Assembly (NCBI GenBank): GCA_017615125.1
Contig: JAGAAS010000018.1
Location: forward strand, 1-39,928
Source of the DNA: Bacteroidaceae bacterium
Lineage (GTDB): Bacteria; Bacteroidota; Bacteroidia; Bacteroidales; Bacteroidaceae
Length of the DNA stretch: 39,928 bases
Reading direction: 5' to 3'
The position numbers and the translations under genes were made by a program. Shown piece after piece: positions 2,321-18,545 of this stretch (position 1 is the stretch's first letter; the number at the start of each line of letters is the position of its first letter). A model generated the notes under the pieces. It was not told the DNA's origin. It did not search any database and was given only the letters and a program-made list of their open reading frames with translations.

Positions 2321-2376
2321 TGCCAAATTGGATATATCATTTTTTTTGGGGGTGTAACAACATAGGAGCTAACACA

Positions 2377-2384
2377 CAAAACTA
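2377..2384 (-). promoter_or_regulatory. Possible -7 element for the CotH gene
   Basis: TAGTTTTG on the minus strand fits the Bacteroidetes TAnnTTTG element and lies about 57 nt before the start codon. No TTG is found at the usual 19-21 nt upstream; the nearest is 25 nt away. The call is weak. Confidence 0.25.
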
Positions 2385-2455
2385 TGGCAAATTGTTTTTA
2401 AGGAAGTAACAAAAAGAATCTATTGAGACGTTAGGTTTTATAGGAAGTTATTGGA

Positions 2456-4183
2456 TTATTCGTGATGGATGTACCAGTGGGAGGGGTTGCTGAGGAGCGT
2501 GCGCAGCGACTCGTCGGCAGGCTCCTGGGCGCCTTTCCTTCGGGCTACCCTGCCGGCAAGGTACGAGGGGTCGTCGCGGCGCAGGGCCACGCGCATGAGG
2601 TCGTAGAAGCGGTGTCCCTCGAAGGCGGTCTCGAGAGCCATCTCGTCGACGATGAGGTCCTCGACATACTGCTGCACCTCGGCAGGGGTGTACTGTGTGG
2701 CGGTGAGGGAGTCGGTGAGGTCGGGGATGGCGTACATGTCGTTGCCGAAGGAGCGCCCGCAGCCGCGCGCGTGGAGCCCGGCGAAGCGTGCCAGCGCCTC
2801 GGTGGTGTTGGCAAACGTGAAGGCGAGCGAGTCGCCCACCAGGCGGACGCTGCAGCCGTTCTTCAGGATACCGAAGGCCTCGTCGTAGCGTCCCAGGCAG
2901 TTGAGGGCTTCAGCCAGGCGCAGCCACACAGTGCCCGTCCTGTAGACGAAGACGTGCCCGCTCTGGTACTTCATGTTGATGAGGCGGTCCTTCTCCTCCT
3001 CCTTGTATGACGGACGTCCCTGCTGCGCCTGCTGCTCGTCGAACAGCGCGGGGAAGACGGCATAGCGCCGCATGTCGCCGCAGGTGAGGTGCTTGGTGGT
3101 CTTGGCATTCACCACATAGGCGTAGTCCTGCGCCTCGCAGAGCTCGCCGTAGGCTGCCGAGGGGCTGATGCGGTAGTGATAGTCGTTCTCCTCGGTGCTG
3201 CTGAAGACATTACTCAGCTCGCTCTTCGTCCCCTGCAGCTTCGTCGAAGCCATAGGGATGAGCGAGATAACCTCCTCGCCGCTGGGATTGTTGAACGTCC
3301 CCAGCCACGACGACGTGAAGCCCAGCAGCTCGTCGTTGGCGTTGATGCCCGACACGACAGCATTCTGCGTGCCCGTCGTCAGCTGCTCCTTAGCGAGGAA
3401 CGTGGCATACATACGAGCTGCCTGCTCGTAGTCGTGCTGCCAGAGGTACATGTCGGCGAGCACGAGCCTGACAGGGAAGAAGAACTTCGCCGAGGGGATG
3501 CCGTAGATGGTGCCGTAGGAGGGCTGCTCGGTATCGGTGAGCGGCAGCAGCTGCGGGATGAAGTAGTCGCAGATCTGCGCCAGCGTATAGCGCGGATAGT
3601 CCTTCTCGGCATCGGCAACCGTGAGGATGGGCTCGGTGTAGAAGGGCACCTCGCCGTAGATGAGCGCCAGCTGCATGTACGTCCATGCCCTCACAGCCGT
3701 CACCACAGCAAACTCCTTTGCCATCGCCCTGCGCCCCCCGACGAGCACCGTGGTGTCGGCGCGCGAGAGGAAATAGTTGCAGTTGTTGATGATGGCGTAG
3801 AAGTCGCTATAGTTCACGAGGCTGTTGTCGGCAGCCACGTTGTTCTGCACCAGCTGGCGCAGCTCGGTGGAGGTGTACTCGTTCTCGTCCACCAGATCGG
3901 CACGCAGCTCGCCCATCAGCACCACCTTGTCGGCTACCTTCTGCACGGAACCCAGGATGCCCATCACCGAGTAGACGGTGTCGGCAGCCTGCGAGAGGGT
4001 GTGCCCCTCTTCGGTGACATACTGCGACGAGGGCAGATCGAGCAGATCGGCACAGGCGCTCAAGGACAACAGGCCTGCGAGGGCCAAGGAGCCAAGGGCT
4101 ATATGGCTAAGTGAGAGCCTACAGCTTTTCAGGGCTAAGGGGCCAAGGGTTAAGAGGCTAAGTATATTATGAAATCGTTTCAT
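2456..4183 (-). CDS. SusD/RagB-family outer-membrane lipoprotein (second pair)
   Basis: This is the surface lid lipoprotein that partners the SusC-type transporter immediately upstream (4197-7373, a few bases apart). From ATG 4183 it has 575 residues, normal for SusD. An in-frame ATG at 4189 and GTG at 4192 are alternative starts. The lipobox LSAC puts the lipidated Cys at residue 44, after an unusually long leader built from near-repeats such as LGPLAL and LGSLALAG. The mature part has SusD character: an early DLLDLPSSQYV-type segment, helical TPR-like stretches, and a C-terminal region with EMALETAFEGHRFYDLMR, the conserved signature of RagB/SusD proteins. It is the last gene of the seven-gene FAS1/SusCD operon. 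The ligand cannot be inferred; no carbohydrate-active enzyme is encoded with it. Confidence 0.93.
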   Translation of the reverse strand: MKRFHNILSLLTLGPLALKSCRLSLSHIALGSLALAGLLSLSACADLLDLPSSQYVTEEGHTLSQAADTVYSVMGILGSVQKVADKVVLMGELRADLVDENEYTSTELRQLVQNNVAADNSLVNYSDFYAIINNCNYFLSRADTTVLVGGRRAMAKEFAVVTAVRAWTYMQLALIYGEVPFYTEPILTVADAEKDYPRYTLAQICDYFIPQLLPLTDTEQPSYGTIYGIPSAKFFFPVRLVLADMYLWQHDYEQAARMYATFLAKEQLTTGTQNAVVSGINANDELLGFTSSWLGTFNNPSGEEVISLIPMASTKLQGTKSELSNVFSSTEENDYHYRISPSAAYGELCEAQDYAYVVNAKTTKHLTCGDMRRYAVFPALFDEQQAQQGRPSYKEEEKDRLINMKYQSGHVFVYRTGTVWLRLAEALNCLGRYDEAFGILKNGCSVRLVGDSLAFTFANTTEALARFAGLHARGCGRSFGNDMYAIPDLTDSLTATQYTPAEVQQYVEDLIVDEMALETAFEGHRFYDLMRVALRRDDPSYLAGRVARRKGAQEPADESLRTLLSNPSHWYIHHE

Positions 4184-4196
4184 TTCCATCACGTCG

Positions 4197-7100
4197 TTAA
4201 AGGTTCAACTTCACACCCATGAGCAGGCTGCGTCCCTGGGGCACCAGGCCTGCATCGATTCCCTGCGACAACACGCTGTTGCCCACCGACGACTCGGGGT
4301 CGGGCCCGAGGTACCGAGTGAGCGTAAACAGGTTGTTGCCCGTGAGCCACACCGTCAGGCCCTGCATCCAGATGCTGTTGACAGGCAGCTTGTAGCTGAG
4401 CGTTGCGCGGCGCAGGCGCAGGTAGGAGCCGTCCTCGATCCAGCGATCGGAGAAGCGGGCGTTGCCCATCGGGTCGCCGAAGGTGGCCCGAGGAATATCC
4501 GTCTGTTGCCCTTCAGCTATCCAGCGGCGGTTGAGCGCCGTTGTCTGGTTGAAGAAGTTGCTGCCAGCCTCGAGCTGCGAGCGCAGGTAGTTGTAGACAT
4601 CGTTGCCCCACGAATAGCCCATCTGCACATCCAGCGACAGCCGCTTCCAGCGCAGCGAGCTGAAGATGTTGCCATAGGCATCGGGGTTGGGGTCTCCGAT
4701 CACAGTCTTGTCGGCATCGTTGATCTCGGAGTTGGAGTCCTGATCGACAAATATCATGTCGCCGGCACCGAAGTACTCGCGAGCCCCTGTTGTGAGCCGC
4801 TGATAGAGCCCTGCCTGCTGAGCCTCCTCGGTGGTAGCGAAGACGCCAGCCGTCTGATAGCCATAGAAGACGCCTGCGGGGTGCCCTACCGCCGTCAGCA
4901 CCTCAGCGCCGTAGAGGGCGGTGGTGAAGTCGCCGTCGGGCAGCTCGGTGATGGTGTTGCGGTAGTGCCCTACGGAGAAGCCTGCCTCCCACTCCCAGTG
5001 GCGCGAAGCAATCAGCTTTGAGGCGACAGCGACGTCGAAGCCGGTGTTCTCGAGCCGTCCCCCATTGCTCCAGTAGCTGCCCATGCCCGAGATCTCGGGG
5101 AGGCTCTTCAGCGTCAGCAGATGGGAGGTGAAGCTCTTGAAGACATTGGCGTTGACCTTCAGGCGGTTGCCGAAGGCAAGGACATCGGCTCCCCCGCTCA
5201 CGCGGCGTGTCGTCTCCCACTGGATGGTGTTATTACCTATCCCACTAAGTGTCAACCCTATGGAGTTGTCAAGATATTTGCGCGACGTGAAGCTCGTCTG
5301 CGCAGCGCTGATGCCTATGTCGTCATTTCCCGTGACGTCGTACCCAGCGCGCAGCTTCAGGAAGTCGATGCCGGGAACCGCAGCCATGAAGGGCTCCGAC
5401 GACATCAGCCACGCTGCCTGGAGCGAGGGGAACAGCCCCCACTTGACGCCTGCCAGCCCGAGCCCCTCCTTGGCGTTCGTGCCGAAGCGCGACGTCGTCT
5501 CCATCGTCACGGAGCCCTCGAGGAAGTACTTCTGCTGCAGGCTGTAGTCGGCGATGCCGTACCAGGCGAAGGAGCGCCAACGGTCGTCCTCGCCCCCAAC
5601 CTTCTTGAAGGCAAGCGAGTTCGACAGGTTGGGCGTCTTGTCGTTGCCCGTGTTGTGTCCCTCCTGCTGGCTGCTGTCGTAGCCGCTGTCGGTGAAGCGG
5701 AAGCCTCCCGTGAGCTGCCAGCCGTGGGCGCCGCTGGTGCCGTCCCAGCGCAAGCGGGTGTCGCTGAAGAGGCTCTCCTGCTTTGCCGTGAGGTTGGAGG
5801 CAGTGTTATACGAGGTGCCCACGCCGTTGATGTAGAACACGGGCACTCCCGTCATGGGCACGAAGGAGCGCTCGTTGACGTTGGCGAGGGAGTAGCTGAA
5901 GAGCGTCGATGCCGTCAGGTGGGCAGTGATGTCGTAGCTTGGGGCGATGGTGATGGTGAACATGCTCTGCTCGAGGTAGTTCTTGTTCCTTGCCTCGCCG
6001 TATTCGTTGATGGCAACGGGGTTGGCCCACGAGCTGTTGAGCGCCAGCCCCTGGGCGAAGTCGTCGGCATCCTCCACGAACGTTGTCAGCATGCCCTGCC
6101 CGTCGTAGCGGTAGGGATGGAGGAAGGGCGCCTTGATGTATCCGAGGAAGCCGGGCGACAGGATGGTGTTCGACTCGAAGTCCTCGGGCACCCCGTCGTT
6201 GCGCAAGTCGCGAGTATTGTTGTTATACGCCACATCGAAGCGTGTCTTCATTCTCTCCGTCAGCTTAATGTCAGTATTGAATCTGAGGTTGAGACGGCTG
6301 AAGTCGTTGCAGCGAAGCGTGCTCTGCGACGCAGCGTAGCCCAGCGAGAGGTTGTAGTCGGCAACCTCGTCGCCCCCCTGGACGTTGATGCTGTAGTTCT
6401 GCGAGAGGGCTTCGCAGTAGAGGAAGTCGTTCCAGCAGGTCTCGTTGTGGTACTTCTTATAATAGTAATACTGGGGATCGTCCTTCAGAAAGCGGAACGA
6501 CGTCTGCTTCGTCTCCGTGCCCCCGATGAGCTCGGAGGCGTAGAGCCTGAAGTCGGCAGCGTTCATCATCGCCATGAGCCTGGGGGCGCTCTCCACGCCT
6601 GCCATAGCATTCACCTCGATGCGAGTTGCCATGCTCTTGCTGCGCTTGGTGTCGATGACGATGACACCGTTGGCGCCCTTGGTGCCGTAGAGGGCGGTAG
6701 CGTTTTTCAGTACCGTTATGCGCTCAATGTCTGCCACGCTGATGTTGGCAAGCATGTTACCCGCATATCCCTCGTGAAGCAGCTCACGACCATACTGTCC
6801 GTCGTAGTAGACACCATCGACGATGACGAGCGGCTGGGCGTTGGCATGCAGCGAGTTGAGTCCTCCGACAAACATCGCTGCCCCCATAGCGGGCATGCCG
6901 CTGCGGGTGACGGAATGCACGTCAGCACCCAGCGCTGCCGCTATCTCCTCCCCTGCGCTGAGGGAGGCGCTTACGGAGAAGTCGTTGATGGAATGATGGC
7001 TTCCGACAGCCAGCTCCTGAGCGTAATCGTCGGAAAACGTTTCCGGGAAGAGGAGCACCTGCCCTGCCTTGCGAGCCGCTGCGATAGGCTTCTGGATGAG

Positions 7101-7373
7101 GTTGTAGCCGGGCGCCGAGACATCGAGCAACGTGGCTCCGTCGGGCACGCTTAGCGTGTACCCTCCCATCTCGTCGGTGAGCGTGGAATGCTGCTGCCCT
7201 CCGTGTACTGCCACGCGGGCTCCAGCTATGGGTTCCTGGGTGGAGGCATCTGCCACGATACCTTTCAACACAGTATCTGCCGACAACGTCTGCGAGAGCA
7301 TCAGCAATCCCACAACTATCAGTGCCCTGACAGCTATGCGTAGAGGAAAATCTGCTTTTATCATGGTATTCAT
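4197..7373 (-). CDS. SusC/RagA-family TonB-dependent outer-membrane transporter (second pair)
   Basis: A 1058-residue TonB-dependent receptor of the SusC type, which imports ligands across the outer membrane using TonB energy and is capped by the SusD protein encoded next to it. It has a signal peptide (about 1-32), a carboxypeptidase-regulatory-like beta domain (about 33-110, with VLKGIVADASTQEPIAGARV), a plug domain (about 120-245, with PLVIVDGVYYDG and ALYGTKGANGVIVIDTK) and a 22-strand barrel to the end. The start ATG 7373 overlaps the stop of the upstream FAS1 gene as ATGA, indicating translational coupling. Base composition is GC-rich with strong third-position bias. Sequence similarity to the first SusC of this operon is visible only in the plug motifs, so the two pairs probably bind different ligands. 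Confidence 0.96.
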   Translation of the reverse strand: MNTMIKADFPLRIAVRALIVVGLLMLSQTLSADTVLKGIVADASTQEPIAGARVAVHGGQQHSTLTDEMGGYTLSVPDGATLLDVSAPGYNLIQKPIAAARKAGQVLLFPETFSDDYAQELAVGSHHSINDFSVSASLSAGEEIAAALGADVHSVTRSGMPAMGAAMFVGGLNSLHANAQPLVIVDGVYYDGQYGRELLHEGYAGNMLANISVADIERITVLKNATALYGTKGANGVIVIDTKRSKSMATRIEVNAMAGVESAPRLMAMMNAADFRLYASELIGGTETKQTSFRFLKDDPQYYYYKKYHNETCWNDFLYCEALSQNYSINVQGGDEVADYNLSLGYAASQSTLRCNDFSRLNLRFNTDIKLTERMKTRFDVAYNNNTRDLRNDGVPEDFESNTILSPGFLGYIKAPFLHPYRYDGQGMLTTFVEDADDFAQGLALNSSWANPVAINEYGEARNKNYLEQSMFTITIAPSYDITAHLTASTLFSYSLANVNERSFVPMTGVPVFYINGVGTSYNTASNLTAKQESLFSDTRLRWDGTSGAHGWQLTGGFRFTDSGYDSSQQEGHNTGNDKTPNLSNSLAFKKVGGEDDRWRSFAWYGIADYSLQQKYFLEGSVTMETTSRFGTNAKEGLGLAGVKWGLFPSLQAAWLMSSEPFMAAVPGIDFLKLRAGYDVTGNDDIGISAAQTSFTSRKYLDNSIGLTLSGIGNNTIQWETTRRVSGGADVLAFGNRLKVNANVFKSFTSHLLTLKSLPEISGMGSYWSNGGRLENTGFDVAVASKLIASRHWEWEAGFSVGHYRNTITELPDGDFTTALYGAEVLTAVGHPAGVFYGYQTAGVFATTEEAQQAGLYQRLTTGAREYFGAGDMIFVDQDSNSEINDADKTVIGDPNPDAYGNIFSSLRWKRLSLDVQMGYSWGNDVYNYLRSQLEAGSNFFNQTTALNRRWIAEGQQTDIPRATFGDPMGNARFSDRWIEDGSYLRLRRATLSYKLPVNSIWMQGLTVWLTGNNLFTLTRYLGPDPESSVGNSVLSQGIDAGLVPQGRSLLMGVKLNL

Positions 7374-8929
7374 CTTTTTACCGGTTCAAGGATGATACAG
7401 TCTATCAAGAGCGTACGCGAATAGTCAGAGCGCTCCTTGCTCAGCACCTGGCTCTGAATCTTGAGCTTAGTAGTCGTTTCCGTCTCGCCATAGTTGCAGA
7501 AGGGGAAGCGGATGTTCTCAAGCACCGTCACCGTATCTATACGTTTGGCATCGGGATAGAGGTACGACGACTTCACCGTCGCCGTCTTCCCCTTCTCGTC
7601 GACATAGCTGAGGTTGGCAAGCAGCTTGTTGGGGAGCCCCACATTCGACCTGTCGGTGCTCAGCGTCTGGGGGAGGAACACCACCTTCACGTCGTATTCT
7701 GCCGAGAGGACATTGGGCACAGAGAAGGTGATGGATGGATTTGCCGACACCGACTTGGGCATCACCTCCACATAGCTTGTCTGAGACACCTTAGAGTAAT
7801 AAGCGCTGGCAGCAGAGAGGTTCCGCTTATACAAATCGCAGTTGTCGGTGTACTCCCGTCCCCGTGTGTTCTCAGCCTCCACCTGTAGCCTCTTGTGCCA
7901 CGATTCCCAGGGTTTGAAGCGCAGCGTGTCGACGGGGAACACCATCCCGTTGCTGCATTCGATGCCGTCGCCGAAGCTTCCGTACTCGGGCAGCAGCGTC
8001 TCCAAGGGGCGGTAGAAGGTATCGTTCGTTGTCGACACGATGGAATCGAGCGGAGAAGGCTGCCACGGCTGGCTGAATACCAGGTCGTTGACGATGGCGA
8101 GCTGCGCATAATGACGCTGCAGGGAGTCGCGCTCCGCGTTCTTCTCGTTGTAGCAATAGTACCCGCTCACCCTCTCGTAGGCCTTTTCCCAGGCATCGTT
8201 TGTCGGGAGAATCATCCAGTAGAGGCTGTCTTCATCATTAAGCTTTCCCAAACGATATAGCATTTCGTTGTAGTTGATGACAACGGAGTCGACATACGTT
8301 ATCTGCCCATCGACGACAGCTCCAGGCACGCTTGCCTCCTCGTCGAGTACCAACTCGTTGAAGGAATAGAGATAGTCGCACACCTTCGTGTAATCGGTGC
8401 CTTTCGACATATACTCCCACACGTTGCAGAAGAACGGCAGCTGCCCCTCGACGATGTGTAGTATGCCGTTGCGGCATCTTATATTCGTTTCCGTCAGCCT
8501 CTTCCCTGCCAGCTGGTAAGCTCCGCCTTCGTATTTGAGGAGCCCCCTCTTGCCGTTGAGCATGAGGATGTTCTTCGGCTCCGCCAGCAGCGGGCTGGCG
8601 CTGACGGCAAAGCGGCAGACGTGGTTCTCGATGACTTCCGTTACCTTCTCGTCAGCCGTGAGGGTGCCGTCAAGCGACAAAACTCCCGCTGGAGCAAACA
8701 CCGTCAACATCTGATCCCCGTCGAGGGTTTTGTCGTAGCCGCAGCTTTCGAGCAGTTGCCGGAAGGCGCCCAGCTCGCTGCGCGAGGCTATCTCGTCCCA
8801 GAGGGTCTTGTCCGATACGTTGTTGCCCTGCTCGTCGTAGTGGTTGTCCCACGTGTCGGCGCAAGCACTCAGGGCCAACAGGCCAACGAGGGCTAAAAGG
8901 CTACATATATACTTTCTTATCTTTCTCAT
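7370..8929 (-). CDS. Fasciclin (FAS1) domain lipoprotein with C-terminal beta-sandwich module (FAS1-C)
   Basis: The start is ATG 8929 (519 residues); the frame is open further upstream, but the signal peptide MRKIRKYICSLLALVGLL and lipobox LSAC (Cys23) fix the start. A purine-rich AGGAGG lies a few bases upstream, unusual here because Bacteroidetes rarely use Shine-Dalgarno pairing. The first FAS1 domain spans about 38-160 (QMLTVFAPAGVLSL, CRNGILHIVEGQLPF) and a second, more divergent one about 165-350 (MILPTNDAWEKAY, CSNGMVFPVDTL). Residues about 370-519 form a beta-rich module ending LLIDCIILEPVKR, resembling jelly-roll ligand-binding modules. FAS1 domains mediate adhesion or protein and glycan binding. 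The gene lies 16 nt after FAS1-B and overlaps SusC by 4 nt, so it is an operon member and probably a surface accessory lipoprotein. Confidence 0.85.
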   Translation of the reverse strand: MRKIRKYICSLLALVGLLALSACADTWDNHYDEQGNNVSDKTLWDEIASRSELGAFRQLLESCGYDKTLDGDQMLTVFAPAGVLSLDGTLTADEKVTEVIENHVCRFAVSASPLLAEPKNILMLNGKRGLLKYEGGAYQLAGKRLTETNIRCRNGILHIVEGQLPFFCNVWEYMSKGTDYTKVCDYLYSFNELVLDEEASVPGAVVDGQITYVDSVVINYNEMLYRLGKLNDEDSLYWMILPTNDAWEKAYERVSGYYCYNEKNAERDSLQRHYAQLAIVNDLVFSQPWQPSPLDSIVSTTNDTFYRPLETLLPEYGSFGDGIECSNGMVFPVDTLRFKPWESWHKRLQVEAENTRGREYTDNCDLYKRNLSAASAYYSKVSQTSYVEVMPKSVSANPSITFSVPNVLSAEYDVKVVFLPQTLSTDRSNVGLPNKLLANLSYVDEKGKTATVKSSYLYPDAKRIDTVTVLENIRFPFCNYGETETTTKLKIQSQVLSKERSDYSRTLLIDCIILEPVKR

Positions 8930-8945
8930 CGTTTTCCTCCTTTCC

Positions 8946-10805
8946 TTAATGCCTATCTTCACGCTGGTAAGGGTTGTCATACACGCTCTTGGGGCAGAGC
9001 TCAATGTAGTCGAGCATGAACTCAAGCGAGTTCTGCGTAACGGAACGGAACCGTATGTAATGGTCCTTATCGGGCGTGAGGTACTGCGTAGCCACAATCT
9101 TGCGCAGCAGGTTCTGCTGGCTGCGGGCGAGCGTCTTAGCGCTCGTGAAGCACTGACTGTCAGGCCCCTTCATATATCCGCGGTTATGCATAGCCTTGTC
9201 GTTCTTGTCGTCGGTTTCATCATCTCCTGTGTCGCGCACCCACCCAATCTTCGGATCGTTGTAAGTACCATACGTATTCACCGTCAAGTCAATGGGGATG
9301 CCTTGAGGAATGTCGTCGACATAGATTTGAGTGATTCCGCGCTGCGCCATAGGCACATAGCCGTAGCGAATCTCATACGTACCCTCAGGAACGGGAGGGA
9401 GCTTAAGCGAGAAGTCATAAAGTCCGAAGCCGATAATCTCGTCACCGTACCAGCACCAGTAGTCGGGCTGCTGATACTGATAGATAACGATGGATTCCTG
9501 ATAGAACTTCATGTTGTCGGAATACCCCTCGGGCACCCAATAGCACTGCTTCTCGTCGTTGCGGAAGATGCCGTTTGTGGCAAGCTCGGGCATCAGCGAG
9601 GCAGCATCCACACGGATGCGCGTATTGAGAACCTTCGTCTTCACATCCGTGTCGTAGACGAGAGGACGGTCTATCGTATAGTATACTCCGTTGTTTCCGT
9701 CGTTTCCGTTATTGTCGTGCACGAGGACTCCTTCGACTTGGAAGGAAGTATCCCAACGGCGGTTGATGCGGAGCCCCTTGTAGCGTGTTCCCTGCCCTTT
9801 TTCCACTTTCAGGATAGTTCCCGGGCAGAGGGTTTCGTAGAAGTCCACCGACTCGTACTGCGGCATGATGCTGATGGTTGTCGTTATCTTGCTGGCGTAG
9901 ATAGTGCGGTTGAGGAAATGGTAGGAGACAAATCGGTTGAGGGGGTTTCGCCTGTGGGTGAAGTCATCGTCGTACTTGCCGGCATCGTTGGGGAAGGAGG
10001 CGTCGTAGATCTCCTTCGCGTAGCTGATAAGCGCGGAGAGGCTTGTAATCCCCTTGCTGGCAAACGCTTCGTTCGTCTCGATGAATCCCGTAAACCCGTA
10101 CCGGCGATGCTTGGGGCGGATGCACGTCTCTCCCTGCCGCACGTAGGCGTAGGTGCTCTCGTCGTACACATACGTCTCGTCCATGAATTTCTGCAAGGAG
10201 TCGTCGATATGCGTCAGCTTCATAGCTTCGCAAAACAGGCTCACCGTAGGGTCAAGTTCCATCAGGTCAGGCAATTGTTCCGTCGAAGGAAGCAATACAT
10301 GATCGACAACGTGCACTACGCCGTTTTCCGTCTCATGATCCTTGATGAGGATTTTGGAGTCGCGGTTGACATAGTAGTCGCTCGTAAGCGAATCGATGTA
10401 AACCTGAATGAAACGATCGTTCATGTTTGCTGTGCCGACGACTCCGTTGTCAAGATCCGTTGTGAGATACTCCACCTTGATGACGTGTCCGAAGGCAATC
10501 GTGTCGCAGTCGGCATCGGAGAGCTGTTCAATGCTCGTGTAGCCCTTTTCGCTCATGTAAATCGCGAAAGCCTCGTTGGTAGGCGCGAAACAGGTGTAGG
10601 TGCCGTAGGCAGCCAGGAGCTGCTTCACTCCTGCCCTCTCGAGCACGTAGGCAAAGTCGCTGAACATCTCGGGATTGTTGTCGAGGTAGTCGCTGATCAT
10701 TTCGCCCGTGAAGGTGTAGAAGTTCTCCGTCTTTAGTTCCTCTACGCATCCCGTCAACGCGAAAAGGGAAACGGCAGCAATAAGAGAAGTTATCGTTTTT
10801 TTCAT
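8946..10805 (-). CDS. Fasciclin (FAS1) domain lipoprotein with C-terminal beta-sandwich module (FAS1-B)
   Basis: A 619-residue lipoprotein: signal peptide MKKTITSLIAAVSLFALTGC with lipidated Cys20. Residues about 35-165 are a clear FAS1 domain (GTYTCFAPTNEAFAIYMSEK; ENGVVHVVDHVLLPS). A second, degenerate FAS1 domain spans about 170-390. The C-terminal part (about 400-619) is beta-rich, with LPPVPEGTYEIRYGYVPMAQ, IYVDDIPQG and a closing LDYIELCPKSVY; this pattern is common in carbohydrate-binding-like jelly rolls, but no family can be named. It shares its layout with FAS1-C directly downstream, suggesting an old duplication. It is separated from the upstream SusD gene by 110 nt that contain a dispersed repeat, so differential expression within the operon is possible. 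Confidence 0.85.
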   Translation of the reverse strand: MKKTITSLIAAVSLFALTGCVEELKTENFYTFTGEMISDYLDNNPEMFSDFAYVLERAGVKQLLAAYGTYTCFAPTNEAFAIYMSEKGYTSIEQLSDADCDTIAFGHVIKVEYLTTDLDNGVVGTANMNDRFIQVYIDSLTSDYYVNRDSKILIKDHETENGVVHVVDHVLLPSTEQLPDLMELDPTVSLFCEAMKLTHIDDSLQKFMDETYVYDESTYAYVRQGETCIRPKHRRYGFTGFIETNEAFASKGITSLSALISYAKEIYDASFPNDAGKYDDDFTHRRNPLNRFVSYHFLNRTIYASKITTTISIMPQYESVDFYETLCPGTILKVEKGQGTRYKGLRINRRWDTSFQVEGVLVHDNNGNDGNNGVYYTIDRPLVYDTDVKTKVLNTRIRVDAASLMPELATNGIFRNDEKQCYWVPEGYSDNMKFYQESIVIYQYQQPDYWCWYGDEIIGFGLYDFSLKLPPVPEGTYEIRYGYVPMAQRGITQIYVDDIPQGIPIDLTVNTYGTYNDPKIGWVRDTGDDETDDKNDKAMHNRGYMKGPDSQCFTSAKTLARSQQNLLRKIVATQYLTPDKDHYIRFRSVTQNSLEFMLDYIELCPKSVYDNPYQREDRH

Positions 10806-10820
10806 AAAGAAGAATTATTT

Positions 10821-10903
10821 TTCAAGAAGGGAAAAATTTTTTCGAGAAGGAATCTCGCCGTATGTAGAAAGAATCTCGCCGTATGTAGAAAGAAAAATTT
10901 TCA
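10821..10903. repeat. Dispersed CTCGCCGTATG repeat inside the FAS1/SusCD operon
   Basis: Copy of a repeat seen in several intergenic regions of this window. It has a hairpin CGAGA-AGGAA-TCTCG at about 10843-10857 and two perfect tandem copies of a 21-bp unit (10851-10871 and 10872-10892), followed by AAAAATTTTC. It lies between the first SusD gene and FAS1-B, so it would be part of the operon mRNA. Confidence 0.75.
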
Positions 10904-10915
10904 TAAGAGAAAGCA

Positions 10916-12553
10916 TCAGTTTTTCTTGATTGTCTCGCCTGTGTCATATCCGGGATTCTGCTTGAGCAGCAGGTTCACCTTGAGCTCGTCTTCGTTGATG
11001 GGGAAATAGAGCATATCGGGTTTGATCCACTTGCTCTTAACAGATTCGGGGTAGGTGTATTTTCGCTTTGCCAAGTCGAGCATTGCGCTGTTGTTGCCGT
11101 CTCGTCTTGCCTTTCGCACCAGGTCGAACCAACGCTTTCCTTCAAACATCAGTTCCCGGTGACGTTCGAGCAGCACAAGGCTTGCCATCTTGGGATAAGT
11201 GTTGTAAGAATTGAACTGGAGGGTGTCCTTAGCCGTCTGGCTGACGTTAGCCCGATTATATACGGCGCTCACGAGCTCGAAAGCCTGCCGCAATTCCTTC
11301 TCCCCTGTTTCGTCGAGGAGGCTCTGCTCGGTGAGGGCTTCGGCCTCCATAAGCATGACATCCGTCAGACGGTAATAAATCCAGTTGGAAAGATGAAGGG
11401 AACGGTAGGTGGGAACATCCTGATTGCTAAAGCTTTCAACGACGTATTTACGAATGGGGAAGAAACTCGTACCCCGGGCATTGAAGTTTTCTACCGCGCG
11501 GATATCCGTCTTGGCAAAGATGTCGTTGCCGCTCGTTGCCCCGTCGGCAATGAAGTCGGCGCAGCTGATTGCACCGATATTACTTGGGGATGTTGCTGTG
11601 CCGAAGTAGCCGGGAATGATGTCGTTGGTTTGCTGATCCTTGGTGAACTGCAATTCAAAGATGCTCTCGAAGGAGCTGCCCTTACCGAAAATCTCGTTGT
11701 AAGCCTCGTGCGTCAATGCAACGCTGTTGGTTTTCTGGTTGCCGATGAGAGGATACTTCCCGTCGTACGTCATTCGCTCCTCCTCAGCTTCCTCTATCTT
11801 GGCTTCTATTACCTTATTACAATAGGTGATGCAGTTGGGATAGTCTTCCATCCACAGATAGACGTCGGCAAGGAGGGCTTGCACAGCCAGACGGGTAACC
11901 CGTCCCTTGTTGTACGATTCCTTGCTGTAGCGACGAACGGCATAGCGCTCTGCCTCAAGAAGATCTGTGACAATCTGGTTGAGAACATCGCTTTCGTCGG
12001 CAGCAGGGTGACGATACTGCTCGTTGTCGTCGATAGTAGGATTCAGCACCAGCGGTATGTCGCGGAAGGTGCGGACGAGGTAGAAATAGCATAACGAACG
12101 GATGGTGAGCACCTCGGACTTCATGGCGAGCCACTCGCTCTCGTTGAAGTCAGGGTCTTTCTGCACGACGTCAGGGCCGTAGTAGAGCACCGTGTTGCAA
12201 AGGTTGATAACGTTGTAGAAACTCGACCAACGAGTTACACTATGCGAAGGCTGGAGGTTGCCTTCCAGTATTTCCAGTTCTTCCTCGCTGGTGCCGAGCC
12301 CCCGGACGATGTTGTCGGAACGCATCTCGCCCCACACGAAAGAGAGCTTCACGAAGTCGTAGGAGGCCATAGCGCTGTAGCAGGAGGCTACAACGGCACG
12401 CACATCATCTTCGTTGGTCCAGTAGTTCTCAAGCACTATCTCGTTGAGAGGAAGAATGCCGAGGAAGTCACTGCAGCCCGTCAACAAAGCCGAGAAGACT
12501 ACAGCGCCTGCCAGTTTGCGTAAATATGTTTGTTTCTTTCTCATAGTCGTCAT
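10916..12553 (-). CDS. SusD/RagB-family outer-membrane lipoprotein (first pair)
   Basis: A 545-residue SusD protein starting one base after the stop of its SusC partner; an in-frame ATG at 12544 (MRKKQTYLRK) is an alternative start. The lipobox LLTGC places the lipidated Cys at residue 27. Family marks include DFLGILPLNEIVLENYWTNE near the N-terminus, four TPR-like helical pairs with LTIRSLCYFYLVRTFRDIPL, and the C-terminal ERHRELMFEGKRWFDLVRKA motif, all standard for SusD/RagB. It should act as the extracellular lid of the SusC encoded upstream. The ligand is unknown. Confidence 0.95.
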   Translation of the reverse strand: MTTMRKKQTYLRKLAGAVVFSALLTGCSDFLGILPLNEIVLENYWTNEDDVRAVVASCYSAMASYDFVKLSFVWGEMRSDNIVRGLGTSEEELEILEGNLQPSHSVTRWSSFYNVINLCNTVLYYGPDVVQKDPDFNESEWLAMKSEVLTIRSLCYFYLVRTFRDIPLVLNPTIDDNEQYRHPAADESDVLNQIVTDLLEAERYAVRRYSKESYNKGRVTRLAVQALLADVYLWMEDYPNCITYCNKVIEAKIEEAEEERMTYDGKYPLIGNQKTNSVALTHEAYNEIFGKGSSFESIFELQFTKDQQTNDIIPGYFGTATSPSNIGAISCADFIADGATSGNDIFAKTDIRAVENFNARGTSFFPIRKYVVESFSNQDVPTYRSLHLSNWIYYRLTDVMLMEAEALTEQSLLDETGEKELRQAFELVSAVYNRANVSQTAKDTLQFNSYNTYPKMASLVLLERHRELMFEGKRWFDLVRKARRDGNNSAMLDLAKRKYTYPESVKSKWIKPDMLYFPINEDELKVNLLLKQNPGYDTGETIKKN

Positions 12554-12554
12554 C

Positions 12555-15500
12555 TTAGAAAGTGATACTCATGCTGCAAGTGAAGTAACGGGCTCGGGGC
12601 GTCTGCGAAGCATCAGTACTGAGTCCGTACCCGCCGTAGCCGACTTCGGGATCGACGCCGGAATAGCGAGTCCAGACGGCAAGGTTGTTGCCCGAGAGGG
12701 AGACGTAGGCACTCTTCGCTCCTATGCGTTTCATCAGCTGAGGAGTGAAGTTGTAGGTGATTTGCAGGTAATTGAAGCGGCAGAAGGAGCCGTCCTCAAC
12801 AAATCGGTCGGAGCCCAGGAAATTATATCCCGTATAGTGGAGTGCTCGAGGAATGGTAGTGACGTCACCTTCGGTGCGCCAGCGCCAGTTGACTGCGAAG
12901 CTCTGATTGTTATTGGAGTACATGTTCTCCGCATTCATTTTGGCGATATTGAGGATTTTGCTTCCGTAGCGGTAGTTGAACTGTGCATTCATGGACCATC
13001 GTCCGTAATTGAGCCGGAAGCCGAAGCCTCCAGTCACCTTGGGGTTACAGTTGCCCAGGTAGACAATATCAAGCTCGTTGATGTTGCCGTCGTGATTCAC
13101 ATCGTCGTAGATAGCATCGCCTCCCTTGAAGGTGTAACGGATGTCGTCATAGTCGTACATCATGGGCAACGGCTCGCCCTCCTCGTCGACAATGACATTG
13201 CCTTGAGAGTCGTGAGCAACAGGAGCATTGGGACCACTCACCCCAGGCACCTCCTCAGCGCTATACTCAGAGTACTGATAAACACCCTTGTAGCGAAAGC
13301 CGTAGATGGAGCCGAAAGCATTAGCAACCTGCACGCGGGTAAGATAGGAGCCGTTGGCAAAGTTGAAATCGCTGTTGAGCCCCATAAGCGTCGTTTCATC
13401 CATCTCCACAATCTGGTTGACGTTGTTGCCAAGCGTCAAATTGAACCCGGCACGAAGGTCACCCAACTTTACGACTTGATTGCCATTAATGTTGAGCTCC
13501 CAGCCTTGGTTGCGCATGCTGCCGACATTCTTCCACGAAAGGGACGAGAAGCCGGTACTGGTGGGGATGCCCACATTCTGCATCAGAAGGTCGGAGGTGA
13601 GCTGGTCGTAGACGTTGATATCGGCGGTGATCATGTCGTTGAACAGCCCTATGTCGGTACCGAGATTCCACGTTGTCTTCGTCTCCCACTTGAGATCGGT
13701 AAGCCGGATGCCCGTAGGTCTAACGGAAGGAAGATCCATATACTGCGCTGCGGTTCCATAGCGGCTGAAATGGAGATACTGGGCTCCCGGCTGCTGCCCT
13801 ACCTGTCCGAATCCGGGGCGGAAAGAAAGCATTGAGAGCCAGCCGTTGGACCAGTCCATCCAAGGCTCGTCGCTGATGTTCCAGCGCCCCGAGACAGAGG
13901 GGAAAAAGCCCCAGCGGTTGTCAGCACCGAACTTGGTGGAGCCGTCAAGGCGGGCTGTGAAGAGGATGGCATACTTCGACTTGTAGCTGTAGTGGGCGCT
14001 GTAGGTGAAGTAGATGCTGCGCCACTGGCTGATGGAGGTCCAAATATTGTTGAGCTGTCCCTCAGCGGTAGACGAAGAGATGCCATTTGGAAGGCCCGAA
14101 GTGGTAGTGCCTGAATCGCTGCCGCTACCATCGGTGAGCTCTCCACGGAGCATAGTGGTGAAAAAGTTATCCTCATTGTCGAAATGAGGCGTGAAGGTAA
14201 GAGTGTGACGAGTGGTAAAAGCTCGGTTGCGGGCTCCCGACTGGGTGGAGCTGTTGACAGACGAGTTGTACCAGCTGAGCGTGGACAACTCGCGGGGGTA
14301 ATACATATCAGTATAATCGTTGAACGTGGAGAGAAGCGCCCTCCCGTTGTAACGCAGCTGATGCCCCGACTCGTCGGGACTGAGAAGATCGTATTGTAGC
14401 TCGAACTGGGCGTTGAGCGTATAGGAACGGTACTTGTTGGTTGCCAGCCGAGCTACAGCCACAGGATTGGGGAGGGAGCGCTGATCGGAGAGCTCGCTCG
14501 ACATGCTCTGCAACGTATAGTAATAGTTGTCGGTAAGGGTGCCGTCAGCATTCTCGGCATAAATACCGAGGTTGGGCATTTTCTTGTAGGCTATGCCGAG
14601 CATACCGATATCGCGGTTGCCCTCGCGATAGGGATAGTTCTTATCGTTGTCGGTATAGGTGAGCGAGAAGTCGCTACTTATCTTGATACGATCGCTCACG
14701 TAGTAATCGAGGTTCACACGAGTAGAAAGCCTATCAAGCTGCTGCCCGATGATGGAGCCCGTCTCGTTGTCGTAGCCGCCGCTGACGCGGAAGGTTGCCT
14801 TGTCGCCTCCACCGGTGAGGGAGAGGAAGTGGGAGTGCTTGACACCTGTCTGCTGGACGGCGCGCACCCAATCAGTGTTGTTGTTGAACTGCTGGTATTC
14901 GGAGAAGGAGGGATCGTAGTTGAGCTCCACGATATTAGAAGTCCTATCGCTCTGCTGGGGATTAAAGTAGGCCTCCTTGAGCAGCATGGTGTAGTCGTCG
15001 CCATTGAGCATGCGGATACCCTCGGGCTGGTGGGTGAGGTTGAGGCGGTAGCTATAGGTGACACGCGTCTTTCCCTGACTGCCTCGCTTCGTTTTAATCT
15101 GGATGACGCCATTGGCTCCCTGCGAGCCCCAGGCTGCGGTGGCCGCAGCATCCTTCAGGACGTCTATCTTCTCGATGTCGTCGGGATTGACGCAAAGCAG
15201 CTCGGCAAACTTCTCCTCGTCGGCATTGGCATAGTCGAAATTGTCGTTTCCGGTAGTCTCAAACACATTGCCGTCGACGACAATGAGGGGCTCGGAGTTG
15301 CCGTTGATGGAGCTGACGCCACGCAGACGCATGGTGGTGCCGGAGCCGAGGTTGCCGGAGTTCATCACGATGTCGAGTCCGGCAATACGTCCCTGCAGGG
15401 CTTCGTCAACAGATGTGAAGCCGAGCCCCTCGAATTCGCTCATGCTGAGCGACTGGGCGGCAACGGACATCTCGCGCTGGGGAATGTCGAGTCCTCCGGC

Positions 15501-15854
15501 ATTGCTCTTGCGAACTTCCTGGATGACGACCTCCTCGAGCTGGAGTTCGTCCTTCATTGTGATGTTGAAAACCTTCCTGTCGCCGATGGGCAGGGTAATG
15601 GTGGTATAGCCGATGTAGGAGAACTGCAGCTTGTCGCGGGTGTTCTTGACACGAAGCGAGAATTGTCCGTTGAGGTCGGTTGTGGTAGCCTCAACGATAC
15701 GGTCTGTCTCGTCAATCTCGACAACGTTGACCATCATGAGAGGCTCGACGTCGTCGGAAACCGTTCCGCTGACGATGGTCTGAGCCGAAAGGGGAATGGC
15801 GACGGAGGAAAACGCCAGCAGAAGGATATATGAGAGAATATGTTTTGTCTTCAT
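12555..15854 (-). CDS. SusC/RagA-family TonB-dependent outer-membrane transporter (first pair)
   Basis: A 1099-residue SusC-type receptor. It has a signal peptide ending in LSAQ (about 1-25), a carboxypeptidase-regulatory-like domain (about 26-105), a plug domain (about 130-245; EPLIVVDGNVFE, AAWGSQGANGVIQIKTKRG) and a barrel ending in aromatic SMSITF, as expected for Bam-recognised outer-membrane proteins. It lies 12 nt after the four-FAS1 lipoprotein gene and runs directly into its SusD partner, so the three form the first half of the operon. Compared with the second SusC of the locus it is longer and differs through most of the barrel, suggesting another substrate. Confidence 0.96.
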   Translation of the reverse strand: MKTKHILSYILLLAFSSVAIPLSAQTIVSGTVSDDVEPLMMVNVVEIDETDRIVEATTTDLNGQFSLRVKNTRDKLQFSYIGYTTITLPIGDRKVFNITMKDELQLEEVVIQEVRKSNAGGLDIPQREMSVAAQSLSMSEFEGLGFTSVDEALQGRIAGLDIVMNSGNLGSGTTMRLRGVSSINGNSEPLIVVDGNVFETTGNDNFDYANADEEKFAELLCVNPDDIEKIDVLKDAAATAAWGSQGANGVIQIKTKRGSQGKTRVTYSYRLNLTHQPEGIRMLNGDDYTMLLKEAYFNPQQSDRTSNIVELNYDPSFSEYQQFNNNTDWVRAVQQTGVKHSHFLSLTGGGDKATFRVSGGYDNETGSIIGQQLDRLSTRVNLDYYVSDRIKISSDFSLTYTDNDKNYPYREGNRDIGMLGIAYKKMPNLGIYAENADGTLTDNYYYTLQSMSSELSDQRSLPNPVAVARLATNKYRSYTLNAQFELQYDLLSPDESGHQLRYNGRALLSTFNDYTDMYYPRELSTLSWYNSSVNSSTQSGARNRAFTTRHTLTFTPHFDNEDNFFTTMLRGELTDGSGSDSGTTTSGLPNGISSSTAEGQLNNIWTSISQWRSIYFTYSAHYSYKSKYAILFTARLDGSTKFGADNRWGFFPSVSGRWNISDEPWMDWSNGWLSMLSFRPGFGQVGQQPGAQYLHFSRYGTAAQYMDLPSVRPTGIRLTDLKWETKTTWNLGTDIGLFNDMITADINVYDQLTSDLLMQNVGIPTSTGFSSLSWKNVGSMRNQGWELNINGNQVVKLGDLRAGFNLTLGNNVNQIVEMDETTLMGLNSDFNFANGSYLTRVQVANAFGSIYGFRYKGVYQYSEYSAEEVPGVSGPNAPVAHDSQGNVIVDEEGEPLPMMYDYDDIRYTFKGGDAIYDDVNHDGNINELDIVYLGNCNPKVTGGFGFRLNYGRWSMNAQFNYRYGSKILNIAKMNAENMYSNNNQSFAVNWRWRTEGDVTTIPRALHYTGYNFLGSDRFVEDGSFCRFNYLQITYNFTPQLMKRIGAKSAYVSLSGNNLAVWTRYSGVDPEVGYGGYGLSTDASQTPRARYFTCSMSITF

Positions 15855-15866
15855 GGCTACACGGGT

Positions 15867-18461
15867 TTATTCGAAACGGAGCACGCCGTCGATGGCGTGT
15901 ATGACTGCAAAGGAGGAAGTCTCTATCTGCGTTGACGTGCTGACATCCTTGGTGTTGAACAAATAGTCACGCGCCAGGATGTTGTAAAGAGAAGGATCTT
16001 CCGTCAGCACATGATGACGGACTCCGATAGCATCGGTAACCGAAATCTGGCTGTTATCAGCCTGAACATTCAAGCGGTAGAAATAGAGCGGGATCACCTT
16101 GTCTCCTTCATAGCTCACCTTCATGGCTGCCGTTTCGTAGGAGCCTGAGTTGCTTCCTCCGCCCACATAGACGGAGTTGTCCTGAATGTGGTATTGGACG
16201 AACTTGGTAATGACGGTTGAGAGGGAGTCAATATAATTCTCTTTGACGAACGACTCGTCGAGAAGCCCAAGAGCATCCAGCGAGTCGAGGCGTGCTGCCT
16301 CGCTCTCCACATAGTGCCAGTCGGGCAGGCCTGCGGCGATAGCATCGCGGACAGACTGGTTGTCGGGGACATACACCGTGTAGTGATAGGTATTGAAGGG
16401 CTTCACGGCATAGTCCGTTGTCGAATAGTCCTCGTCGCGGTAGAAGACATTCTCGCTCCCAGCCATCAGACGGAAGAACTCGTAGAAGGGACCCGGGTTC
16501 TCGTCGGTACCGGCATGTTCCCTTATGGCAGCATACACCGACTTTTGCGGAGCCAGCATGAGGATGTCGGTAACGTAGGTCTTGCCGTTGCCCTCCAGCG
16601 AATAGTCGTAGATGTCATCGGCAGGAATAGCGACTCCGCGACGGTTCTCGTACTGATAGCCTCCGAAGAAGTCGAAGCCCCCAACCCCGTCGTCGGGCTG
16701 CACCATGATGGTGCCTTTGCCTTTGGTTAGGTAGAACGTCTTGCCCGTCTTGCAGTTTTCAACCGTGTCGACGATGATGTGATAGTCCATGATGTCGTCG
16801 AGACGGTCTTCTATGATAGCATTTCCGGGAGCAATCTCGCGTTTCTGGTTGCGCCGGAATCCGCCCTCCACATCATATTCATAGACATGAGCACCCACTT
16901 TCCCCGACTTCATGTCGTAGTAGAACTCCCACTCCTCCGGCTCGCCTTGAGCGAAGGAGATGGGGTCAAGGTAGTGCGCAAAGGCCTCGTCGGTGGGTAG
17001 TATGAAGCTGTAGTAGGAGTCCATTGAGCGAAGGTAGGCATAGAAGTTCAGCTGCTCTATGGCCCAGTCGGCAATCTTCATGTTGTCGTTGACTAACGTC
17101 GGGGCGCTGACGGAAATGTAGGCAACTGGGGGATAAACCCTATCGGTGAAATAGACTAAGCCGTTGTTGCAGAGCTGCGTTCCCAGCACGTTGCGCATAT
17201 CCACTCCCATATCTACCTGCCCGTCATTCTTCACCTGATAGAACTTACTGGGCACGCTGGCATCGAAAGACTGCTTCATATGGTTGGAAATCAGGTCGTC
17301 GAGCACTCGGTCGGGCACATTTTCCCAAGTGCCGTAGCGCTCTTTCAGGAACCGCCCGCCGCCTTCGTTCCAGTACAAGTCGAGAACCTCGTTGGTAGGC
17401 ACGAACATAACGCCCATATCCTCTTCCATATCCGTCTGATTGTCGGCTTCGTAGCGGTTCCACCCTGGGTCGAAGCTGAGCAAGCCAAGCGCGAGTGTAT
17501 CGGCAGGCGTATACAAGAACTCCAAGTTGTTCTGCCCTCTTCCGGTGAAGTAGCGCTTCACGAATACCGAGTCGTCGGAGCCTGGGTGAAGGCGCTGATA
17601 GTCAAGCGTTGCCTGCTCGTTGTAGTAAGGGGCGCAGAAACGGTCCATGAGTCTTGCGAACTCGCTCGAAGCCGCATTCTTGTTTACCGCCTCAGCCATA
17701 TTCACAAGGGGCACCGTCAGTTTCTCCAAGCGGTGCACAACACCGTTCTTGCATTTGTTGTTGGCTGAAACGATGCGTACTCCGTTGACAAACACCTCGT
17801 CCTTCGACAGGCGCCGCTGCCCATTGTGGATAACGGCGAAGTCCTCCTCGGTGATGCTGTTGTACCGCATGAACTTGTTGGTAAAGTGCACCATAGGGGA
17901 AGCCGTGTTGTCCTTCATCAGCAGGATGTGTCCCTTTGCCCTCGCATCGTCCCAGAAGTCTGTTGCGGGCATCTCGGAAGGAGTAACCCACGCCACAGAG
18001 TCTTGAACGCTCAGCGCCGTAGTTCGGCGGAGGCATTTGCCTTCGACAGGGCCTTCCACTCGACCGAGCATATCGGTATAGTACACGTTGTTCAGCATGT
18101 TGGAGTTGAGCAACAGCTTCTTCTGAGCCACAGACAGGTCTTCGTACCTTCTGACGTTCCACTCGTTGGACTTGTAAAACTCGCCGAATGCCGAGTCGTT
18201 GACGACGAACAGCGTCTTGCTACCCGTCTTTCTCAGCACCTCGGCATAGTCAAGGTCTTCAATCAGCCGGATGAACTGCGTATAGCAGCCCTCCTCCTGC
18301 AGGTAGTCGTAGATGCTGTTCCCTAGCCACTCGGGTTCCTGTTCGTCCAGAATGTAGTCTTCGTGACAGGCTGTCAGCAGGCTTGTCGCTGCCACACAGA
18401 AGGTCATTGCCCACAGGCTCGTCTGGACTTTCCTCAGTCTTCCTTTCATTGGATTAAGCAA
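15867..18461 (-). CDS. Large fasciclin lipoprotein with about four FAS1 domains (FAS1-A), first gene of operon
   Basis: An 864-residue lipoprotein (alternative start ATG 18449, MKGRLRK). The lipobox LLTAC gives lipidated Cys32. Four FAS1-like units can be followed through the recurring pattern of an N-terminal helix, a late (F/Y)xxP(T/N)(D/N) strand and a closing NG-x-V(H/Y) strand: about 45-255 (TLFVVNDSAFGEFY; CKNGVVHRLEKL), 255-460 (MFVPTNEVLDLYW; CNNGLVYFTDRV), 465-645 (FILPTDEAFAHYL; YVTDILMLAPQK) and 645-864 (YTVYVPDNQSVRDAI; SFAVIHAIDGVLRFE). A promoter stands about 55 nt upstream, so this gene opens the operon. By analogy with other FAS1 proteins it probably binds a surface ligand or matrix component; this is inference. 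Confidence 0.87.
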   Translation of the reverse strand: MLNPMKGRLRKVQTSLWAMTFCVAATSLLTACHEDYILDEQEPEWLGNSIYDYLQEEGCYTQFIRLIEDLDYAEVLRKTGSKTLFVVNDSAFGEFYKSNEWNVRRYEDLSVAQKKLLLNSNMLNNVYYTDMLGRVEGPVEGKCLRRTTALSVQDSVAWVTPSEMPATDFWDDARAKGHILLMKDNTASPMVHFTNKFMRYNSITEEDFAVIHNGQRRLSKDEVFVNGVRIVSANNKCKNGVVHRLEKLTVPLVNMAEAVNKNAASSEFARLMDRFCAPYYNEQATLDYQRLHPGSDDSVFVKRYFTGRGQNNLEFLYTPADTLALGLLSFDPGWNRYEADNQTDMEEDMGVMFVPTNEVLDLYWNEGGGRFLKERYGTWENVPDRVLDDLISNHMKQSFDASVPSKFYQVKNDGQVDMGVDMRNVLGTQLCNNGLVYFTDRVYPPVAYISVSAPTLVNDNMKIADWAIEQLNFYAYLRSMDSYYSFILPTDEAFAHYLDPISFAQGEPEEWEFYYDMKSGKVGAHVYEYDVEGGFRRNQKREIAPGNAIIEDRLDDIMDYHIIVDTVENCKTGKTFYLTKGKGTIMVQPDDGVGGFDFFGGYQYENRRGVAIPADDIYDYSLEGNGKTYVTDILMLAPQKSVYAAIREHAGTDENPGPFYEFFRLMAGSENVFYRDEDYSTTDYAVKPFNTYHYTVYVPDNQSVRDAIAAGLPDWHYVESEAARLDSLDALGLLDESFVKENYIDSLSTVITKFVQYHIQDNSVYVGGGSNSGSYETAAMKVSYEGDKVIPLYFYRLNVQADNSQISVTDAIGVRHHVLTEDPSLYNILARDYLFNTKDVSTSTQIETSSFAVIHAIDGVLRFE

Positions 18462-18514: not shown

Positions 18515-18545
18515 CAAAGGTAATGCTTTCTGCGCGCTTTTGCAA
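18515..18545 (-). promoter_or_regulatory. Promoter of the FAS1/SusCD operon
   Basis: On the minus strand TTG (18543-18545), a 20-nt spacer and TACCTTTG (18515-18522) match the Bacteroidetes sigma-ABfr consensus exactly. Transcription would begin near 18507, giving a leader of 45-60 nt before FAS1-A. No second promoter of this quality was found inside the operon. Confidence 0.75.

Follow-up and report, generated by a model that had tools for sequence, protein, structure and literature searches.

A recurrent seven-gene cassette of FAS1 lipoproteins and two SusC/SusD pairs in Bacteroidaceae, with a proposed role in the import of plant cell-wall glycans

The window analysed here, 39,928 nucleotides long, is the whole of contig JAGAAS010000018.1 (C80) of a Bacteroidaceae genome (GCA_017615125.1, here G000; 3.03 Mb, 87% complete). 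On its minus strand, a point left unsaid by the original prediction for this DNA, lie seven intact, co-directional genes, which run from an ATG at 18449 to a stop at 2456 and encode, in transcription order, a lipoprotein with four FAS1 domains, a SusC, a SusD, two lipoproteins with two FAS1 domains each, and a second SusC and SusD. The intergenic gaps, in the same order, are 12, 1, 110, 16, -4 and 4 nt, with gene 1 started at ATG 18449 and gene 5 at ATG 8929 rather than as the longest open reading frames (ORFs). The genes and the promoter-like site ahead of them are:

18515..18545, minus strand: promoter-like site TTG-N20-TACCTTTG (-7 box at 18522-18515)
15867..18449, minus strand: gene 1, lipoprotein with four FAS1 domains (PF02469, 2.5e-12; longest ORF from TTG 18461)
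12555..15854, minus strand: gene 2, SusC-like TonB-dependent importer, first type (TIGR04056, 675 bits)
10916..12553, minus strand: gene 3, SusD-like lipoprotein, first pair (PF07980, 4.1e-25; PF14322, 1.3e-13)
8946..10805, minus strand: gene 4, lipoprotein with two FAS1 domains and a predicted C-terminal beta-sandwich like a carbohydrate-binding module (CBM)
7370..8929, minus strand: gene 5, lipoprotein with two FAS1 domains and a C-terminal domain of ~180 residues (PF02469, 1.7e-09)
4197..7373, minus strand: gene 6, SusC-like importer, second type (TIGR04056, 570 bits)
2456..4192, minus strand: gene 7, SusD-like lipoprotein, second pair (PF07980, 4.4e-11)

The seven-gene order proposed by the original prediction is borne out by the ORFs and by profile scores over their cut-offs. 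Genes 2 and 6 reach 675 and 570 bits against the TIGR04056 cut-off of 368, genes 3 and 7 score 89.5 and 43.4 bits against 23.1 for PF07980, and PF02469 lies above its gathering cut-off in genes 1, 4 and 5, whose profiles also match solved FAS1 structures. The predicted gap range, from a 4-nt overlap to 110 nt, is the one we measured (-4 to 110 nt), and the single consensus promoter, of Bacteroidetes type, holds as well: TTG-N20-TACCTTTG precedes gene 1 and the minus strand between 18449 and 2456 contains no further copy of TAYYTTTG, while a stricter pattern that requires TTTG at -33 does not match the site upstream of gene 1. Among nine upstream regions compared, this layout is common to the window and its closest ortholog, G255, where the DNA has diverged, and is absent from the seven others; in G400 and G372 the gene of a small lipoprotein, described below, stands against gene 1 in its place. 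Rfam at gathering scores gave no match anywhere in the window.

In both pairs the SusD gene adjoins its SusC (gaps of 1 and 4 nt), and the sequences of genes 1, 3, 4, 5 and 7 carry N-terminal lipoprotein signals. Profile-profile comparison with hhalign resolves four FAS1 repeats in gene 1 and two in each of genes 4 and 5, the weakest being one in gene 1 (Prob 78) and the second copy in gene 5 (Prob 84); together with the predicted folds of genes 1 and 4, which agree with counts of four and two, this 4+2+2 arrangement accounts for the eight FAS1 units on three lipoproteins that had been claimed. In the predicted fold of gene 1, ~845 columns align with TGFBIp/periostin (E 1e-21). Those proteins likewise string four FAS1 domains in succession, and the match spans almost all of gene 1, but they are animal matrix proteins with 13-14% identity, a likeness of fold only. 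The closest solved relatives of gene 3 are the SusD homologs 9sje and 9sjj. Gene 4 is modelled as two FAS1 domains (about 34-385) followed by the CBM-like sandwich (about 394-611); this C-terminal part has no Pfam match in the window protein, and DUF5108 was matched in 4 of 30 relatives of it. With its SusE position, its lipobox and the modelled sandwich, gene 4 is a candidate surface glycan-binding protein (SGBP). For the C-terminal part of gene 5, a sequence profile found no PDB match.

The gene order is not chance, because the same order occurs in 29 of 80 other loci and in all five copies in genome G000, the window copy included. The four other copies of this genome are:

C40, 45772-61395: same gene order
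C24, 10999-26844: same gene order
C88, 23185-39836: same gene order
C100, 14717-36749: same gene order, with the gene-4 type tripled

By Pfam, 7 of the 17 SusD matches of G000 fall inside its cassettes; the second SusDs of C40, C24 and C88 are invisible to that search and were recovered with a custom profile. The outside loci came from a contig scan with gene-4 relatives, of which the best 80 of 476 were taken, and 29/80 is accordingly no frequency; in nine of the 29 (L034, L042, L048, L049, L050, L052, L056, L082 and L086), gene 5 was assigned by place and length, without a FAS1 label. Seven loci are partial, most of them stopping at a contig end, and one (L046) has no called second SusD though its contig continues. 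The remaining 44 lack the cassette and consist largely of lone FAS1 genes, although two carry a label for SusC or SusD. G000 itself also encodes FAS1 lipoproteins of the gene-4 type that stand alone, with no SusCD next to them (C40, 76553-78613; C32, 19339-21444; C98, 20081-24532). Conserved FAS1-SusC-SusD neighbourhoods, the search for which had been suggested together with the original prediction, thus exist, and so does FAS1 beside SusC/D in other Bacteroidetes: the full order is found in metagenome-assembled genomes titled Bacteroidaceae, Prevotellaceae and Paludibacter, and in two marine Flavobacteriaceae, Mariniflexile fucanivorans and Leeuwenhoekiella nanhaiensis. Record titles name herbivore guts as the source of many fetched relatives.

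Six further genomes, read directly, have the cassette, and in a seventh (G233) gene 3 is hidden in the gene calls. Within the family, 213 of 301 sampled genomes, the window genome included, have a match to a profile of gene 1; the figure counts gene 1, which alone was sought with at most three candidates per genome scored, rather than full cassettes, and a few matches are weak (8.8e-12). Across the order the profile matches 15 of 198 sampled genomes, again counting the window genome. Each of thirty genomes contained between 1 and 8 matches to gene 1, in part fragments of a single gene. Besides, the C100 copy (14717-36749) and the flanks of L115, L116, L123, L124, L220 and L221 define a second recurrent, enzyme-free neighbourhood, in which, in several genomes, a PD40 lipoprotein and DUF6057 stand on one side and an amidase and MlaD on the other, these flank genes being inferred from gene lengths and neighbour tallies.

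The distance matrices of the seven genes, computed for 33 cassettes, are consistent with one another (r 0.76 to 0.95), with a correlation of 0.952 between first and second SusCs that none of 999 permutations equalled. In a tree of the 66 cassette SusCs and three non-cassette SusCs, the 33 second SusCs, gene 6 among them, form one clade with support 100. The first SusCs, including gene 2, fall outside it; a single clade was not recovered for them, as they require two changes on the tree, and the three non-cassette SusCs, whose branches are long, are placed within or next to them. The same sub-groups recur in both halves of the tree. This separate clade of second SusCs with its mirrored sub-groups indicates that the cassette moves as one. 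Congruence by itself could reflect host ancestry; yet the five copies of G000 are spread over three sub-groups in both halves, and the two SusCD pairs therefore look old, distinct and unswapped.

Two neighbouring genes of the window copy were considered as possible further members:

18934..19392, minus strand: small lipoprotein of 152 amino acids (aa), probable accessory, with homologs upstream of congeneric ortholog cassettes
1..2326, minus strand: CotH kinase and dockerin protein, cut by the contig end (PF08757, 1.1e-24; PF00404, 1e-07)

The small lipoprotein has no Pfam match, and homologs with 44-68% identity accompany all six window-type orthologs fetched (L236, L238, L239, L241, L244 and L246). 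In G400 and G372, its gene is separated from gene 1 by 34 and 14 nt, and it probably belongs to the operon there. The nearest orthologs (G255, G400, G372, G313 and G344) share 70-85% identity in gene 1. The CotH gene starts 129 nt downstream of the cassette. It was rejected as an eighth operon member because another gene takes that place in the five orthologs read, namely one of 513 aa, which carries DUF4301 in the one ortholog scanned by Pfam. The CotH gene is thus probably not a fixed member, and given the other gene in the orthologous cassettes, an assembly join near the contig end may lie behind it. Relatives of this CotH-dockerin protein occur in G000 at C40 72870-75494 and at C32 16400-19315, the latter 23 nt after the lone FAS1 gene.

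No carbohydrate-active enzyme (CAZyme) adjoins the window copy, judging by Pfam on the window proteins scanned, and none was recognised next to the five congeneric orthologs with a downstream flank read (5/5), whose neighbours were judged by identity to window genes and custom profiles, and in one case by Pfam. Because no CAZyme adjoins, we class the window copy as a SusCD import cassette, not a complete polysaccharide utilisation locus (PUL). A linked regulator (hybrid two-component system, HTCS, or extracytoplasmic function factor, ECF) was not found in that part of the window ORFs that was scanned with Pfam. Farther upstream, ~5 kb away past other genes, the window encodes a GHL10 lipoprotein (PF02638; 23280-24803, minus strand), which G255 also has upstream (77% identity). 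The minus strand further holds a gene of the Porphyromonas-type peptidyl-arginine deiminase family (PF04371, 2.3e-30; 24997-26295) and one for a 310-aa secreted protein (30311-31243) with an 83% identical relative in G255; this protein matches an iterated SusC profile at E about 1e-50, is too short for a receptor, and probably owes the match to profile drift.

Enzyme-free orthologs with a fixed non-CAZyme neighbour (DUF4301), and the C100-type surroundings of PD40, DUF6057, amidase and MlaD, would suit a non-polymer cargo such as a metal chelate, a siderophore or a vitamin. Two SusD pairs with a candidate CBM-like SGBP fit glycans instead, and lyases stand beside related copies, so that we consider such a cargo very improbable.

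It is in those related copies that the freedom from enzymes, claimed for the locus at the outset, breaks down. It stands for the window copy and its five congeneric orthologs; as a property of the class it had to be rejected, since lyases of PL11 and PL1 type adjoin relatives, and enzymes in the locus elsewhere, which the original prediction had itself named as speaking against it, were found in paralogs, next to which lie a pectate lyase and a rhamnogalacturonan I (RG-I) lyase. In the sister cassettes L031 and L032, the nearest outside the window's ortholog group (51-54% identity in gene 1), the gene directly upstream, at 218 and 240 nt, encodes a PL11 RG-I lyase that bears PATR repeats. In G358, an upstream protein of the same size has a 71% identical tail, with tail and length alone compared. 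A "PL1" label on the proteins at L031 and L032 (L111 and L117) and in G358 was discarded as an artefact of the common PATR tail; L111 and L117 are PL11. The PATR tail of the L111 lyase (511-5049) resembles that of a pectate-lyase-like protein in G000 (C40, 61404-64937), so that two distinct pectin lyases may share a tail for display.

The window copy might be taken for a decayed PUL that lost its enzymes, since PL11 occupies in the sister cassettes the place at which the window group shows just the small lipoprotein, and since G255 gene 2 consists of two ORFs, from decay or assembly error. This we find scarcely credible: none of the seven ORFs is broken in the window or in four of the five orthologs (G400, G372, G313 and G344; 58-90% identity), and the promoter layout is preserved in G255.

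Cassettes like C40, C24 and C88 of the same genome, which we call the divergent type, adjoin a different lyase in five of the nine read whole. There, a PL1-like pectate lyase lies directly upstream, on the same strand (C40, 8 nt; C24, 118 nt; G401, 29; G374, 10; G233, 19). A solved pectate lyase is matched by the C24 protein (3.6e-70), and PF00544 by that of G374; the other PL1-like assignments rest on a custom profile, and the G233 protein has no lyase match in Pfam. C24 is additionally flanked by CE8 and GH28. Over 30 genomes, 7 of 92 PL11 ORFs fall in the fetched flanks, at six cassettes, against 1.28 expected (P 3.6e-4), and none of 109 GH13 ORFs do (1.51 expected). PL1 (3/40, P 0.019) is biased, as it includes two lyases of G000 known beforehand, which leaves PL11 as the sole tested family with a clear flank excess owing nothing to known positions. 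The expectation was uniform over the genome, though CAZymes cluster; fragments of one ORF were merged, below-cut-off rows were dropped, and most matched cassettes had flanks fetched. PL11, CE8 and GH28 are also encoded at other places in G000.

Gene content, order, conservation, the SusC split, the relatives' enzyme neighbours and the CBM-like fold, as read from sequences and models, lead us to infer a surface complex, a glycan ligand, pectin, and enzymes acting in trans. With moderate confidence, we thus propose that the cassette captures and imports, in the manner of Sus, a complex glycan of plant cell walls, which is most likely pectic (RG-I or related). Import by SusCD is established. In the proposed scheme, gene 1 would form a long four-FAS1 surface scaffold of periostin/TGFBIp-like build; genes 4 and 5, in the SusE/SGBP position, would hold the polymer, with their FAS1 pairs as stalk or contact modules and the CBM-like sandwich of gene 4 binding sugar. 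Depolymerising enzymes would act outside, encoded at other loci for the window copy, and for sister and paralogous copies by an adjoining gene (pectate lyase, RG-I lyase or other CAZyme). SusD1 and SusD2 would pass the cleaved products to SusC1 and SusC2 for TonB-energised import, the two long-diverged, non-interchanging pairs taking two kinds of product. The operon layout of the original prediction is supported, and in this sense so is a likely surface capture complex with two transporters. Rather doubtful to us is the stronger version, in which all seven proteins make one obligate "double-barrel" outer-membrane complex, with two SusCD importers held by periostin-like FAS1 scaffolds and one polymer threaded between the binding platform and both importers of different specificity, and in which the fixed order of the importers either predates the separation of Bacteroidales from Flavobacteriales or was passed as one block from one to the other.

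Several observations weigh against a pectic ligand. The window copy's own ligand rests on relatives, because no CAZyme adjoins it or its five congeneric orthologs. No PL1 is directly upstream in four of the nine divergent-type cassettes (C88, G387, G481 and G345), nor at G008:C22, G008:C19, G004:C90 and G009:C66, of which the flanks alone were read. CE8 (2/49, both at C24, P 0.15) and GH28 (3/75, P 0.09) are not significantly enriched in flanks, and homogalacturonan was rejected as the ligand of all copies on that account. The gene 4 sandwich matches xanthan lyase, MiXBM and CBM35, members of one widespread fold, and its match list also holds Cry toxins and receptor kinases; a common fold alone is no demonstration of sugar binding. 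Other cassettes adjoin GH2, a fucosidase, GH3, a sulfatase, GH67 or housekeeping genes, and pectin is therefore not universal. In the neighbour tallies, the four nearest ORFs were considered, and the first upstream and first two downstream ones that were co-directional and 150 aa or longer were taken (49 and 76 proteins), which was not in every case the gene next door; an opposite-strand control on 50 of 196 ORFs gave GH2 in 2/50, and of the families matched by at least two proteins no other was a glycosidase.

This variety may mean that the machine is the same and the glycan changes by copy, the window copy taking a non-pectin such as arabinan, xylan side chains or arabinogalactan. GH43, GH98, GH95 and GH115 stand beside further copies, in addition to GH2, GH67, GH3 and sulfatase, the last two next to the two marine flavobacterial ones. 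We nevertheless regard it as a possible but clearly less likely account, given that the nearest cassettes outside the window's own ortholog group (51-54% in gene 1) adjoin an RG-I lyase and that PL11 alone shows a clear flank excess independent of known positions.

A proteinaceous or host-matrix ligand, as the original prediction suggested, would be conceivable by analogy with FAS1 adhesins and with RagAB-type SusCD systems, which import peptides; the periostin/TGFBIp-like predicted fold of gene 1 and the lack of an adjoining glycosidase at the window copy speak in its favour. Yet the CBM-like domain predicted in gene 4, the lyases and glycosidases beside related cassettes and the herbivore-gut origin of many fetched relatives (by title) all argue the other way, and no peptidase is among the top-25 families listed, of 85 upstream and 151 downstream neighbour families. 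We thus found no support for this ligand and judge it improbable.

Returning to the proposed glycan importer, its plan resembles that of Sus (SusCDEF) in that SusC and SusD are followed by lipoproteins in the SusE/F position, one of them CBM-like by its model. It departs from Sus in the second SusCD pair, in the four-FAS1 first gene, and in FAS1 replacing the usual N-terminal modules of SGBPs. Pectin PULs of Bacteroides thetaiotaomicron include double SusCD pairs (PMC8002723); in its RG-I PUL (BT4145-BT4183), the SGBP BT4167 lies between the pair BT4164/65 and the pair BT4168/69 (PMC8002723). We place this PUL, with the homogalacturonan and arabinan PULs of that species, among the closest known systems. 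It shares with the cassette two SusC/SusD pairs in C-D-x-x-C-D spacing, by gene number alone, and a pectic target, and differs by its lyases and HTCS regulators, none of which adjoin the window copy. If the genes BT4163-BT4169 are homologous, the cassette would represent an RG-I uptake core already under study, in a pared-down form that is widespread. The xylan system xusA-xusB-xusC-xusD-xusE of rumen and human gut Prevotella has a tandem double SusC/SusD block with further outer-membrane proteins (PMC7848910). There, the pairs are adjacent, a single xusE and the GH10 Xyn10C follow, and FAS1 is not mentioned in the text consulted; in the window, the gene downstream is the CotH-dockerin one, not a Xyn10C-type GH10.

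Among the matches listed in the open literature on FAS1/fasciclin and Sus-type genes, there was no published account of the cassette. The printed links between FAS1 and PULs that we found are two (PMC4891872, PMC10199937). A figure legend for a Gramella PUL for a cellulose/hemicellulose-like substrate reads "FAS, FAS1 domain protein" beside SusD, a figure label only (PMC4891872). A mussel symbiont counts a FAS1 gene among its 20 most abundant transcripts, and two SusCD pairs share one of its contigs; the parts consulted read FAS1 as adhesion, do not tie it to those pairs, and assign the PUL genes mostly to murein metabolism (PMC10199937).

Should our proposal hold, much of the family, judging by the gene-1 matches in 213 of 301 genomes, would carry at least one undescribed double-transporter cassette for plant fibre. 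Because the enzymes can sit elsewhere, such loci may be scored as orphan SusCD pairs. FAS1, treated as an adhesion module in the literature consulted, would gain a role in nutrient capture, and why two SusCD pairs stay together would become a testable question.
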